Below are positions 12,217-44,128 of a DNA stretch of 45,343 nt, piece by piece (position 1 is the stretch's first letter; each line of letters begins with the position of its first letter). The notes under the pieces are model-generated. The model saw only the letters and a program-made list of their open reading frames with translations, did not search any database and was not told the origin of the DNA. The stretch is from Deltaproteobacteria bacterium. Lineage in GTDB: Bacteria; Desulfobacterota; Syntrophia; Syntrophales; JACQWR01. The stretch covers positions 1 through 45,343 of the forward strand of contig JAPLJV010000015.1 in assembly GCA_026388415.1 (NCBI GenBank), read 5' to 3'. The translations under genes were made by a program, and so were the position numbers.

Positions 12217-12260
12217 CTGATCTTTTCGCTTTACTCCCGACGGGGGGACATTTCCCTATC

Positions 12261-12309
12261 CAGGAGTTATCAGCCTGAGCGGCGGTTATCGGGTGAACTC
12301 CATCACCTC
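12261..12309 (-). promoter_or_regulatory. fluoride riboswitch (crcB motif) aptamer
   Basis: On the minus strand the leader shows the crcB-motif layout. GGTGA (12307-12303) pairs with TCACC (12296-12292) and carries the conserved GATG. GGAGTT (12301-12296) pairs with AACTCC (12268-12263). A small GCC/GGC hairpin (12283-12273) is followed by the conserved CTGAT. Laid against the Thermotoga fluoride aptamer as I remember it, all helices and the GATG and GCTGAT blocks correspond. Downstream, GGAGT (12237-12233) can pair either with the aptamer strand ACTCC (12267-12263) or with the terminator 5' arm ACTCC (12216-12212). Fluoride holding the aptamer strand would leave the linker free to disrupt the terminator, giving an ON switch. 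The downstream enolase gene fits the known fluoride regulon. Confidence 0.87.
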
Positions 12310-12325
12310 TCAAATATGTTTGTCC

Positions 12326-22582: not shown

Positions 22583-25432
22583 ATGACACCCGAAGAATTC
22601 ATCGCCCTCTGGAAAGACAACAAACTCACGGAACGCGGCGGGGCGCAGGCGCATTTTGACGATCTGTGCGACCTGCTCGGCGTGGACAAACCTCGCGATC
22701 CGGATAACTACTGTTTTGAACAGGGGGCCAAGAAATCCGGCGGCGGCGACGGCTGGGCCGATGTCTGGAAACGCGGCTACTTCGGCTGGGAAAACAAAAA
22801 GCCGGGCCGCGACCTTGCCACCGCCCTGCATCAGCTTACCGACTACGCCCTGCAACTGGAAAACCCGCCGCTCCTCGTCGTCTCCGACCGGGAGCGCATC
22901 ATCATTCACACCGCCTTCACCGGTTACCCGGACGAACCGCGCGAAATTCGTATCGAAGAACTCATCGATCCCGAAAAACGGCAAATTCTGCGCTGGGTCT
23001 TCACGGACCCCCAAAAACTCCGTCCGGAAAAATCCACCGCCACCATCACCGCTGAGGCCGCCGGGCACTTTGCCGGACTCGCCAGAAACATGCGCGAACG
23101 CGGGCTTGACGGCCAGCGTGTCGCTCATTTTCTGGTTCAATGCCTGTTTAGCATCTTTGCGGAAGATGAAAACCTGCTCCCCGGCAGCGTCTTTACCGAA
23201 ATCCTCAAAAGCGCCGGCAGCGACGCCGACAAGGCCGGCAAACGTATCAACAAGCTCTTCACCGCCATGCAGCAAAAAACCGGCGGTGAATACGGCGATC
23301 ACGACATCGCCTGGTTCAACGGCGGTCTCTTCAAAACTATTGATGTTCCCGTTTTGACCACAGATGATCTGGCCGCGCTGTACGCCGCCGCAGCCAACAT
23401 GGACTGGCGAGCCATTGATCCCACTATCTTCGGCACACTCTTCGAACGCGGCCTCGATCCTGCCGCCCGTGCCCCGCTCGGCGCTCACTACACCGATACC
23501 GGCACCATCGCCAAGCTCATCCGTCCGCTGATTACTGAGCCTCTGCTGGCCAAATGGCAGACCGTTAAAGCAGTTATTGCTGCCGGGCAAGGCAAAGGCC
23601 CGCGCACCAGGGAATACAAGGAAGCCCGCGCCGCCTACCAAGGCTTTCTGCTGTTTCTCCATCTCTTTCAGGTGCTCGACCCCGCCTGCGGATCGGGGAA
23701 TTTTCTCTACCTGGCCCTCAAGGCCCTGCGCGATCTGGAGAAGCAAGTCCACATCGAAGCGCGGGAACTGGGACTTGAAGCCGAACTCTTGATGCAAACC
23801 GGGCCGCACAACATTCGCGGAATCGAAATCAACGAATTTGCCGCCGAACTCGCCCGCGTCACCGTCTGGATCGGCGACATCCAGTGGTGCCGTCGCAACG
23901 GACGTGAAATCGCCCGAGATCCCATCCTGCGCCCCCTGGACGGCATCGAGCACCGCGACGCGCTGCTCAACCCCGACGATAGCGAGGCCGCCTGGCCGAA
24001 AGCCGATGTCATCGTCGGCAATCCGCCTTTTCTGGGCGACAAGATGATGCGCGGCGAACTGGGCGACGCCTACGTCGAACGGCTGCGCCGGCGTTTTGAA
24101 GGCCGTGTACCGGGCGGCGCCGATCTGGTGACCTATTGGTTCGAGAAAGCGCGGGCGCAGATCGAAGCGGGAAATGCAAGGGCGGCGGGACTGGTCGCCA
24201 CCAATTCCATTCGTCAGATACGCAACCGCGCCGTGCTGGAACGGATTCTTGCGAGCACTCGCATCTTCGAGGCGTGGTCGGACGAGGATTGGGTGAACGA
24301 AGGGGCTGCCGTGCGGGTCAGCCTGGTCTGTTTTGGGCAGGGCAGCAGCACGCGGCTCGACGGAAATTCCATGACCGCTATCCATGCCGATTTAACGGGC
24401 AGCGCCCAGGGAGAAGAAACGTCTGACCTTACCCAGGCCCTGCCGCTCCCCGCCAACAAAGGACGCTCATTCTTCGGAATTTGTCTGGCCGGTCCTTTCA
24501 AAGTAGACACCGCCACGGCCCTCAAATGGCTTAAGGAAAGCGGCAATCCGAACGGACGCCCCAACAGCGACGTCGTGCGGCCCATCTACAACGGTTCCGA
24601 CATCACCCGGCGCTGGGCGGGCAACTGGGTGGTGGACTTCGCCGGGATGGATCTGGCTGCGGCCGCCGATTACCTCACACCCTTCGCCTATGTGGAGAAT
24701 AAGGTGAAGCCGGTACGCATAACCAACAACCGTGCGGCCAGAGCGGAAAAATGGTGGCAGCATGGTGAAAAGCGGCCGGCGCTGCGCGCCGCCCTGCATG
24801 GCCTCACCCACTACATCGCCACTTCGGAAACCGCCAAGCACCGCTTCTTCGTCAAATTTCCAGTGGAGGTAGCGCCTGAACACAAGCTAATCGTCATCCC
24901 GCGCCAAGACGATGTGACGCTTGGCATACTATCCTCACGCATCCATTGCTTATGGGCGATTGAAAACGGAGGACGTTTGGGCGTTGGAAATGACCCAGTC
25001 TACAACTCAAGTCTATGCTTTGAAACCTTCTCCTTCCCGCCCGGATTCGACCTCAAGGCGAAGGCCGCTCCCGAAGGCGAACCGTTCGCCGCAATCGCCG
25101 AAGCCGCCGCCGACCTCGATGCCTGGCGGGAAAAATGGCTTAACCCGGAGGGCTGGCTGGACTGGGAGAGCACGCAGGAAGAACAAAACGCCGGTTTTCC
25201 GCCCCGACCGGTCCCCAAGCCGGAGTACACTGCGGCCTGGAAGAAGCGCACCCTGACCAACCTCTACAACGAAATGCCCGCCGGGCTGAAACTGCGCCAG
25301 GAAAAACTTGATCGGGCCGTCGCCGCTGCATACGGCTGGGAGGATTACACCCCGGACATGTCCGACCGAGAAATCCTCCGCCGTCTCCTGGCGCTGAACA
25401 GGGAGCGGGTCAAGCCAAGGGAGCGGACATAA
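22583..25432 (+). CDS. MmeI-like single-chain restriction-modification enzyme (type IIL/IIG)
   Basis: This 949-residue protein combines cutting and methylating activities. The N-terminal nuclease motif D-x9-ExK is present (Asp60, Glu70, Lys72 in GWADVWKRGYFGWENKK). A helical linker precedes the adenine-N6 methyltransferase domain, with S-adenosylmethionine motif LDPACGSGNF (365-374) and catalytic NPPF (480-483). The target recognition domain lies in the C-terminal 350 residues. In MmeI relatives one strand is methylated and DNA is cut about 20 bp away; the site here cannot be read. No separate specificity subunit is near. A long antisense open frame exists only because of GC-rich codon use. 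It is followed 152 bp later by a STAND NTPase gene, forming a defence cluster. The codons are more GC-rich than those of that neighbour, so the two probably arrived separately. Confidence 0.9.
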   Translation: MTPEEFIALWKDNKLTERGGAQAHFDDLCDLLGVDKPRDPDNYCFEQGAKKSGGGDGWADVWKRGYFGWENKKPGRDLATALHQLTDYALQLENPPLLVVSDRERIIIHTAFTGYPDEPREIRIEELIDPEKRQILRWVFTDPQKLRPEKSTATITAEAAGHFAGLARNMRERGLDGQRVAHFLVQCLFSIFAEDENLLPGSVFTEILKSAGSDADKAGKRINKLFTAMQQKTGGEYGDHDIAWFNGGLFKTIDVPVLTTDDLAALYAAAANMDWRAIDPTIFGTLFERGLDPAARAPLGAHYTDTGTIAKLIRPLITEPLLAKWQTVKAVIAAGQGKGPRTREYKEARAAYQGFLLFLHLFQVLDPACGSGNFLYLALKALRDLEKQVHIEARELGLEAELLMQTGPHNIRGIEINEFAAELARVTVWIGDIQWCRRNGREIARDPILRPLDGIEHRDALLNPDDSEAAWPKADVIVGNPPFLGDKMMRGELGDAYVERLRRRFEGRVPGGADLVTYWFEKARAQIEAGNARAAGLVATNSIRQIRNRAVLERILASTRIFEAWSDEDWVNEGAAVRVSLVCFGQGSSTRLDGNSMTAIHADLTGSAQGEETSDLTQALPLPANKGRSFFGICLAGPFKVDTATALKWLKESGNPNGRPNSDVVRPIYNGSDITRRWAGNWVVDFAGMDLAAAADYLTPFAYVENKVKPVRITNNRAARAEKWWQHGEKRPALRAALHGLTHYIATSETAKHRFFVKFPVEVAPEHKLIVIPRQDDVTLGILSSRIHCLWAIENGGRLGVGNDPVYNSSLCFETFSFPPGFDLKAKAAPEGEPFAAIAEAAADLDAWREKWLNPEGWLDWESTQEEQNAGFPPRPVPKPEYTAAWKKRTLTNLYNEMPAGLKLRQEKLDRAVAAAYGWEDYTPDMSDREILRRLLALNRERVKPRERT

Positions 25433-42996: not shown

Positions 42997-43785
42997 ATGA
43001 ATAAACTTGATTGCGGTGGGAAATTGATAACTGGATTTGTTATTTTTCTCTTCCTCAGCACTGCAACCTTACCTGCTTACGCTGAAAATGGGAACGAATG
43101 TGCTGATATTACCAAAGAAAAGGTCGCCGGCACCTTGAAAAAAATGAATATCCCAGTAGTTGAAATATTGGCCATCAAGAACAGTCCCTTGGACGGTATT
43201 TGCGAGATAGAGGTCAACAGCAAAGGATCGGCGGGTATCTTTTATACCGATCTAACGCTCAATTACGTGATATTCGGAAGCCTGCATGACACCAGGAATA
43301 TGGTGAACCTCACTGCAAGCAGTGTTCAGAAACTGCAGGACAAGAAAAGAGTTGATCTGGCCAGGATAACCTTGAATGAGGGACTGGCCATCGGGGTAAA
43401 GGGAGCGGCGAAAAAAGTCATAATTTTTACGGACCCTGACTGACCATACTGCGGCCAACTTCATCAGGTGATGAAGCAGATTGCAGACAAACGGCAAGAT
43501 ATCATATTTTATATTAAGTTATTCCCTTTGAGTATGCATAAGGATGCCTACTGGAAGTCCAAAAGCATCATTTGCAACAATTCCATGAATTTGCTTGAAA
43601 ACTGCTTCGCAGGGAAAAAGATTGACAAGACGGAGTGTGATAACACCGAAGTTGATGAGACGATAAAATTAGCCGATTCCTTAGGCATCACGGGAACCCC
43701 GGGCATTGTTCTGCCTGATGGCCGGATGCGTATGGGCGCCCTGCCGGAAAGTGAACTGATTGATTTGATTGACGGAAAGAAATAG
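42997..43785 (+). CDS. selenocysteine-containing DsbC/DsbG-like thiol-disulfide protein
   Basis: This 262-residue exported protein is probably a periplasmic disulfide isomerase or reductase. A signal peptide (about 10-29, ending PAYAEN) precedes a DsbC-like N-terminal domain (30-130) and a thioredoxin-fold domain. The redox motif normally reads D-C-P-Y-C; here codon 149 is UGA (43441-43443) in FTDPD-U-PYCGQLH, giving U149-P-Y-C152. The reading frame continues for 113 codons with further family features, including the cis-proline loop GITGTPGIVLPDG. A 7-bp hairpin with an AGGU loop lies 15-33 nt after the UGA. This pattern fits selenocysteine and not a random stop. The ATG has AGAGGAA upstream. 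A second UGA-containing gene follows 34 bp later. Confidence 0.88.
43459..43476 (+). promoter_or_regulatory. bacterial SECIS hairpin of the DsbC-like gene
   Basis: CTTCATC (43459-43465) pairs perfectly with GATGAAG (43470-43476) around the loop AGGT. The loop begins 22 nt after the UGA, and has GG followed by U, as in the fdhF element bound by SelB. It lies inside the coding sequence, as bacterial SECIS elements must. Confidence 0.8.
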
Positions 43786-43819: not shown

Positions 43820-44128
43820 ATGAAATTCCCAAAATATCGCTTCATCACCCTCGTTACCCTCTTGCTGCTGACCTGTTTTTTTATGCAGGCTATTTACGCT
43901 GCGGAGAGAATTGTACAACTGAATATTCCCGGTTGCGGCTCCTGAGGCCTGAGCCAGAGGATAGGTTCTATCCTCAAGACAACAGCGGGAGTCATCAAGC
44001 ATGAAATACCGCGGGAAAATACTATCAACATCACTTTTGACGATGAAAGCATATCCGCAGACGAGATTCTTGCCACGCTGAAAAAAAATGGCTTGACTGT
44101 CAACGGTGCGCCGGTATTGATTAAGTAG
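43820..44128 (+). CDS. selenocysteine-containing exported HMA/MerP-like small protein
   Basis: This 102-residue protein has a signal peptide (about 8-28, ending QAIYAAE) and one ferredoxin-like heavy-metal-associated type domain. The strand-loop-helix start reads IVQLNIPGCGSUGLSQ and the rest is KTTAGVIKHEIPRENTINIT, then DEILATLKKNGLTV, in the usual beta-alpha-beta-beta-alpha-beta order. Codon 42 is UGA (43943-43945), so the metal/redox motif is C39-G-S-U42, replacing CxxC. A perfect 7-bp hairpin with a GGUUC loop begins 11 nt after the UGA. The ATG at 43820 follows AGAGG. Without readthrough only 41 residues, mostly signal peptide, would be made. It probably binds or passes on a metal ion such as mercury or copper, or acts as a thiol/selenol redox protein; both are inference. 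Confidence 0.87.
43957..43975 (+). promoter_or_regulatory. bacterial SECIS hairpin of the HMA-like gene
   Basis: GAGGATA (43957-43963) pairs perfectly with TATCCTC (43969-43975) around the loop GGTTC. The loop starts 18 nt after the UGA with GG in the first two positions, within the range for bacterial elements. Confidence 0.8.

Follow-up and report, generated by a model that had tools for sequence, protein, structure and literature searches.

Background

HMA-like proteins containing selenocysteine (Sec) have been described before, the examples being UxxU_metal_bind, MerT_CopZ_Se, a UxxC cation ATPase and a C/SxxU mercuric transport protein (PMC13188914, NCBIfam). The protein considered here is encoded near the end of a 45,343-nucleotide contig of a Syntrophales bacterium (JAPLJV010000015.1), the whole of which is referred to as the window. 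It resembles MerP (TIGR02052; PDB 1osd, 1afi) in being exported, in its mature HMA domain of ~70 residues and in its TFDD-type strand 3, but its family has PGCxxU or PDCxU in place of GMTCxxC, carries Sec, scores far below the MerP cut-off and comes with neither MerT nor a mer operon. With UxxU_metal_bind (NF041115), whose motif is UxxU (PMC13188914), it shares a small HMA-like domain in which Sec is possible, and 16 of the 27 members scanned match that model weakly; the window protein, however, reaches 17.4 bits against a cut-off of 95. The above-cut-off members of NF041115 sampled in the phylum were stop-free, and the one inspected (L205) has GMTCxxC. MerT_CopZ_Se (NF045683), or ‘putative mercuric transport protein’ (PF02411, C/SxxU, ABB16073.1), is a proposed metal-transport selenoprotein with an xxU motif in its HMA-like part. 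This part is described as fused to a MerT part, whereas the window protein is a separate exported domain, and only 3 of the 27 members match this model weakly.

Over these 27 members, the best E-value was 1.1e-12, obtained for MerP (TIGR02052), and the best E-values indicate that no member reaches a cut-off. The claim of an earlier note on this DNA that the gene would escape standard annotation thus holds for current family models, none of which covers it above cut-off. In NCBIfam 20.0 and in the 2026 review (PMC13188914), we found no family made up of separate, exported HMA proteins with CxxU. A table from 2008 on the GOS data lists a ‘Mercuric transport protein MerP’ with two Sec sequences and without Cys homologues, giving no motif or sequence (PMC2398784). 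This may be an earlier sighting of the same family, and no separate entry for it was found in the 2026 review (PMC13188914). Note that the 2006 list of 19 selenoproteins of Syntrophus aciditrophicus does not include the HMA-like family (PMC1794560).

Two adjacent UGA-containing genes

The gene occupies positions 43820..44128 on the forward strand (stop TAG included) and encodes 102 residues when its UGA is read as Sec42, the translation beginning with MKFPKYRFITLVTLLLLTCFFMQAIYAAERIVQLNIPGCGSUGLSQ and ending in VLIK. The in-frame UGA lies at 43943..43945 (+), within the C39-G-S-U42 motif (PGCGSU with its preceding residues), and is conserved in homologues. AGAGGA, which resembles a ribosome-binding site, stands immediately 5′ of the ATG. 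The product consists of one domain preceded by one N-terminal hydrophobic helix, a signal peptide of residues 1-27 (43820..43900, +) in which the hydrophobic helix (residues 5-26 in the structural model) is followed by AIYA-AERI; the AxA-like end is conserved in homologues. The proposal that readthrough of the UGA yields an exported protein of 102 residues was therefore borne out by the frame, the signal peptide and the conserved UGA.

Directly upstream, after a gap of 34 bp, lies a second putative selenoprotein gene (42997..43785, +), which encodes an exported DsbC-like disulfide isomerase of 262 residues with a UPYC active site, its in-frame UGA at 43441..43443 (+) corresponding to Sec149. 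A SECIS-like hairpin (CUUCAUC-AGGU-GAUGAAG, 43459..43476, +) places its loop 22 nt after this UGA and folds at −15.2 kcal/mol (z −2.97). The protein matches Pfam DsbC_N and Thioredoxin_2 as well as NCBIfam DsbC (65 bits, under the cut-off of 215). The UxxC thiol:disulfide interchange (PF13098) and DsbG-like (NF041057) selenoproteins are akin to this upstream protein and not to the HMA-like one. Its six closest homologues in the order (44-53% identity) carry Cys at the Sec site, within DPDC[PS][FY]C (CPFC, CPYC or CSFC), so that UPYC probably results from a recent Cys-to-Sec change. The window thus holds two adjacent genes that are both predicted to encode selenoproteins.

As a control within the window, we collected all TGA-ended open reading frames of at least 35 codons whose frame stays open for at least 55 codons beyond the TGA, which gave 19 places. 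Only two of them had a Cys codon at a distance of three codons together with a SECIS-like stem of at least 7 bp, namely the TGA at 43943-43945 and the TGA at 43441. A further TGA-ended frame at 23528 (+) likewise stays open for long past its TGA and has a SECIS-like stem of 7 bp, without a Cys codon at that distance; this SECIS-like candidate is probably due to chance.

Conservation of the UGA and covariation of the hairpin

If the UGA at 43943 were a real stop, the frame downstream would be open by chance or be what is left of a decayed sequence, a reading that is consistent with the lack of any family model covering the gene above cut-off. However, the family is widespread in the order, with 116 matches in 106 of the 197 related genomes (order Syntrophales, Desulfobacterota). 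Exactly one in-frame TGA is present in 108 of the 116 matches, other internal stops occur in none, and the UGA is kept in 113 of the collected family sequences. The remaining eight matches comprise one that begins after the Sec of a gene which itself carries Sec (L202), a short partial match whose motif region is uninformative (L203), two genes with CxxC, reading CADC at the site (L058, L059), two with CxC (L193, L176), one in which the motif is missing (L197) and one weak match (G179). In addition, protein-level constraint continues past the UGA, with a median dN/dS of 0.204 over 59 pairs (hairpin codons excluded), indicating purifying selection. The earlier note had named the absence of Cys or Sec at this position in homologues, or of conservation beyond the UGA, as what would speak against a selenoprotein; instead, nearly all homologues keep Sec, a few have Cys, and conservation runs on downstream.

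The hairpin announced 18 nt past the UGA is present at 43957..43975 (+), where a 7-bp stem (GAGGAUA/UAUCCUC) closes a 5-nt loop (GGUUC) that starts 18 nt after the UGA, with a fold energy of −14.4 kcal/mol. These values satisfy all the published rules for bacterial SECIS elements, i.e., a loop of 3-9 nt with G in its first two positions, a stem of 4-16 bp, a minimum free energy of at most −7.5 and a distance of 16-37 nt from the UGA (PMC13188914). Its fold energy is ordinary (z −1.2, with 21 of 200 shuffles folding as well), which is the second point in favor of a real stop, and since the energy alone is unexceptional, the case for a SECIS element rests on comparison.

In the main group of sequences, the hairpin spans 17 nt, lies 12 nt after the Sec codon and is typified by AGGATA-GGTTC-TATCCT, coding R-I-G-S-I-L. 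Among the 91 different sequences of this group, pairing is kept in 96.7% of cells and six of the seven pairs show double-sided changes. Cells changed on both sides number 43 against 10.7 expected from shuffles, and none of 500 shuffles was as high on any covariation measure, the sequences being related to each other, so that these shuffle counts are not probabilities. Sliding the partner register lowers pairing to 24-49%, and RNAalifold recovers the identical hairpin unaided. In several of the compensations (columns 18/30, 21/27 and 15/33), both partners are third codon positions, for which there is little protein-coding reason. Codon usage follows the same line: in the 93 sequences with the 12-nt spacer, ATA encodes the hairpin Ile in 68 of 69 cases, as compared to 208 of the 1002 Ile codons in the domain as a whole. 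A second group (PDCSUP and others) retains a SECIS-like hairpin, although its spacer is 15 nt long and its stem is another one (AGGGTC-AGTTG-GACCCT), which codes for other residues. The hairpin has decayed in both CxxC copies examined (L058, L059), where four of the six pairs are left. The genomes that carry these copies (G122, G091) also carry a Sec copy, and it is in the Cys copies that the intact hairpin was lost; these pairs of copies represent a natural Sec-to-Cys experiment.

The genome also encodes the machinery that Sec insertion requires, with a tRNA-Sec at 72.8 bits, SelB at 382.9 bits (cut-off 242) and SelA at 597.2 bits (cut-off 268). Among the relatives, tRNA-Sec was above cut-off in 164 of 197 genomes, and of 20 listed genomes that were negative in the first scan, 14 contain the family gene. 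Looser filters recovered tRNA-Sec in five of these 14 family-positive genomes and did not find it in the other nine. Since SelB is present in 12 of the 14, and given the five recoveries, we read the missing tRNA-Sec as assembly and detection gaps. Note that an alternative genetic code with UGA as Trp was rejected, because UGA also terminates family genes (L015, L021 and L028).

So far as sequence can decide, the conservation of the UGA in more than 100 genomes, the covarying hairpin and the purifying selection beyond the UGA refute the real-stop reading, to which we give almost no weight; Cys at the Sec position in some homologues and the Sec machinery in the genome also speak against it. The comparative evidence supports the earlier note in its central claim of a Sec-containing exported protein with a metal-binding fold of the HMA/MerP type, and with high confidence 43820-44128 encodes a Sec-containing protein of the HMA fold.

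Fold and register of the motif

The AlphaFold2 model built with 88 rows (pLDDT 85.7) displays a beta-alpha-beta-beta-alpha-beta order, made of strand 29-35, helix 44-54, strands 58-65 and 68-74, helix 80-89 and strand 95-100. VIA-align compared it to Atx1 with a Z of 11.1 (1.7 A over 70 residues) and to MerP 1osd with a Z of 9.6, and the top Foldseek ranks were proteins of the same kind. The predicted fold is thus ferredoxin-like, of the HMA type. PF00403 gave no match for the window protein itself and matches 11 of the 27 members scanned (best E 6.6e-7).

In the model, the CxxU motif lies in the loop that links strand 1 to helix 1, where HMA domains have their metal site. The earlier note had placed Sec exactly at the second position of the CxxC metal site; this stands as to the local CxxU motif and not as to the register. 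Indeed, the broad profile aligns without gaps and matches Cys39 to the Met of GMTC, so that Sec42 falls between the two Cys, and the structural alignments (VIA-align) cover 71-73 residues with hardly any gap, whereas a narrower profile brings CxxU onto CxxC through a gap of two residues on each side. We favor the gapless register over the CxxC-matched one, with the Sec motif ~2 residues N-terminal of the canonical HMA CxxC; CxxU may therefore not be in exact register with it.

Binding of metal, redox activity or mercury uptake

In the mechanism that we propose, the SECIS hairpin shortly after the UGA would bind SelB, which would deliver Sec-tRNA. Sec42 would thereby enter the strand 1-helix 1 loop, the metal-binding place of HMA domains, and the signal peptide would then export the selenoprotein to the periplasm. 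There, the selenolate, aided by Cys39 where present, would bind a soft metal ion (Cu(I), Ag(I) or Hg(II)), and the protein would act as a metal chaperone or scavenger. We infer this periplasmic role with about even confidence; because of the fold and the site, it is the most likely one and ranks above a redox role, the main alternative. Several observations count against metal binding, namely that the GMTCxxC signature is missing, that several members have lost the Cys partner, that the spacing varies between CxxU and CxU, and that no conserved metal-gene neighbors were found in the family neighborhoods examined. The family gene is mostly a single-gene unit amid housekeeping genes; in Smithella-like genomes, the neighbors are, as we take them to be from protein sequences read by eye, UvrA, HD-GYP, YggS, Maf, mannose-1-phosphate guanylyltransferase and RlmI. 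Such neighborhoods tell nothing about function in these genomes and are mixed elsewhere.

A redox role would consist in a reversible selenenylsulfide between Cys39 and Sec42, or in a lone Sec acting as a peroxidase-like or reductase nucleophile, in concert with periplasmic Dsb proteins. CxxU and CxU are typical redox motifs of selenoproteins (table in PMC13188914), the adjoining gene in the window encodes the Sec-containing DsbC-like protein, and the structure of oxidised MerP, which has the same fold, has been solved. However, the fold is that of HMA domains and not thioredoxin-like, the Dsb neighbor was seen in this genome only and at none of the other loci examined, and four members that carry Sec in a Cys-free mature domain (L165, L117, L119 and L120) cannot form an internal selenenylsulfide. 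We hold the redox role at clearly less than even confidence, and keep it as an alternative because the Cys partner and the spacing vary, metal genes are lacking nearby and the neighbor in this genome is a Sec-DsbC. At one locus (L218, genome G016), a CxU member lies downstream, on the same strand, of genes that we presume, from sequences read by eye, to encode cytochrome bd oxidase-like subunits and a FAD-dependent disulfide oxidoreductase-like protein.

The matches to MerP raise the question of whether the protein is a true MerP, serving in a mercury uptake and detoxification system with Sec replacing one Cys. All 27 members scanned are hit by TIGR02052, no other NCBIfam model hits as many, and TFDD is common to the window protein and MerP in the alignment to 1osd. 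In contrast, the score of 29.4 bits falls far short of the cut-off of 92.55, and GMTCxxC is absent, replaced by PGCGSU in the window protein and by PGCxxU, CxU or xxU in the family. MerT was found in two of 154 related genomes and is absent from this one, and no mer genes were recognized in the neighborhoods examined. A mercury-uptake role of the MerP type is unlikely given that MerT is absent from nearly all relatives, and the true-MerP reading seems to us highly improbable. A Sec-based HMA domain would allow a direct test of the selenolate as a metal ligand in natural proteins, and the natural Sec, Cys and Cys-less variants of the family are ready for such a comparison.

Sec and Cys forms in the history of the family

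The family tree comprises 116 rows with few columns, so that many of its forks are unresolved, and its motif rows divide into 91 CxxU, 14 CxU, 5 xxU and 4 Cys. The two CxxC rows group together (100/100) deep within the CxxU clade, and the CxC rows sit among the CxU rows, which argues that the Cys forms descend from the Sec forms. In the usual picture, Cys homologues of selenoproteins far outnumber the Sec forms (PMC13188914); the direction in this family, from Sec to Cys as far as the tree tells, is the reverse of that pattern. Moreover, Sec is more strictly conserved than its Cys partner: it is retained where this partner is replaced by Y (L165), by V (L119, L120 and L122) or by G (L117), and in L165, L117, L119 and L120 the mature domain bears Sec and is free of Cys.

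Altogether, we tentatively suggest, with somewhat less than even confidence, an uncatalogued selenoprotein family whose HMA domain, sometimes free of Cys, would have Sec as its main and original ligand, so that a lone periplasmic selenolate would handle a soft metal in syntrophic bacteria, the Cys forms being late reversions.

Distribution in Syntrophales and beyond

As judged from the in-frame UGA, the family is almost always Sec-containing and widespread in Syntrophales, Sec outnumbering Cys by more than 20:1 in the 197-genome search. Bacterial selenoproteins are usually found by pairing a UGA-containing gene with many Cys homologues, and the scarcity of Cys forms would explain why this family was overlooked. 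A DNA pattern made of Cys, UGA and hairpin retrieved 46 stretches in named genomes, all of them metagenome-assembled genomes (MAGs) labeled Smithella, Smithellaceae, Syntrophaceae, Syntrophales/Syntrophobacterales or unplaced Deltaproteobacteria; by design, this pattern (UGA and hairpin) finds Sec forms only, and the counts of Sec and Cys come from the 197-genome search. A family gene (L054) is also present in a genome of 3.18 Mb assembled as a single contig (G035), and the genome studied here has a second UGA-containing copy, a paralogue, on another contig. Beyond the order, the family is rare in the phylum, with matches in 21 of 395 genomes, same-order ones included, and some of the weakest of these phylum-wide matches are ordinary HMA domains. 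Since Syntrophales hold a major place in anaerobic food webs, re-annotation would concern many genomes.

Finally, the Rfam scan of the window returned no SECIS family, its only match being a fluoride riboswitch (RF01734) at 12254-12316 on the reverse strand, with 47.6 bits, above the gathering score.
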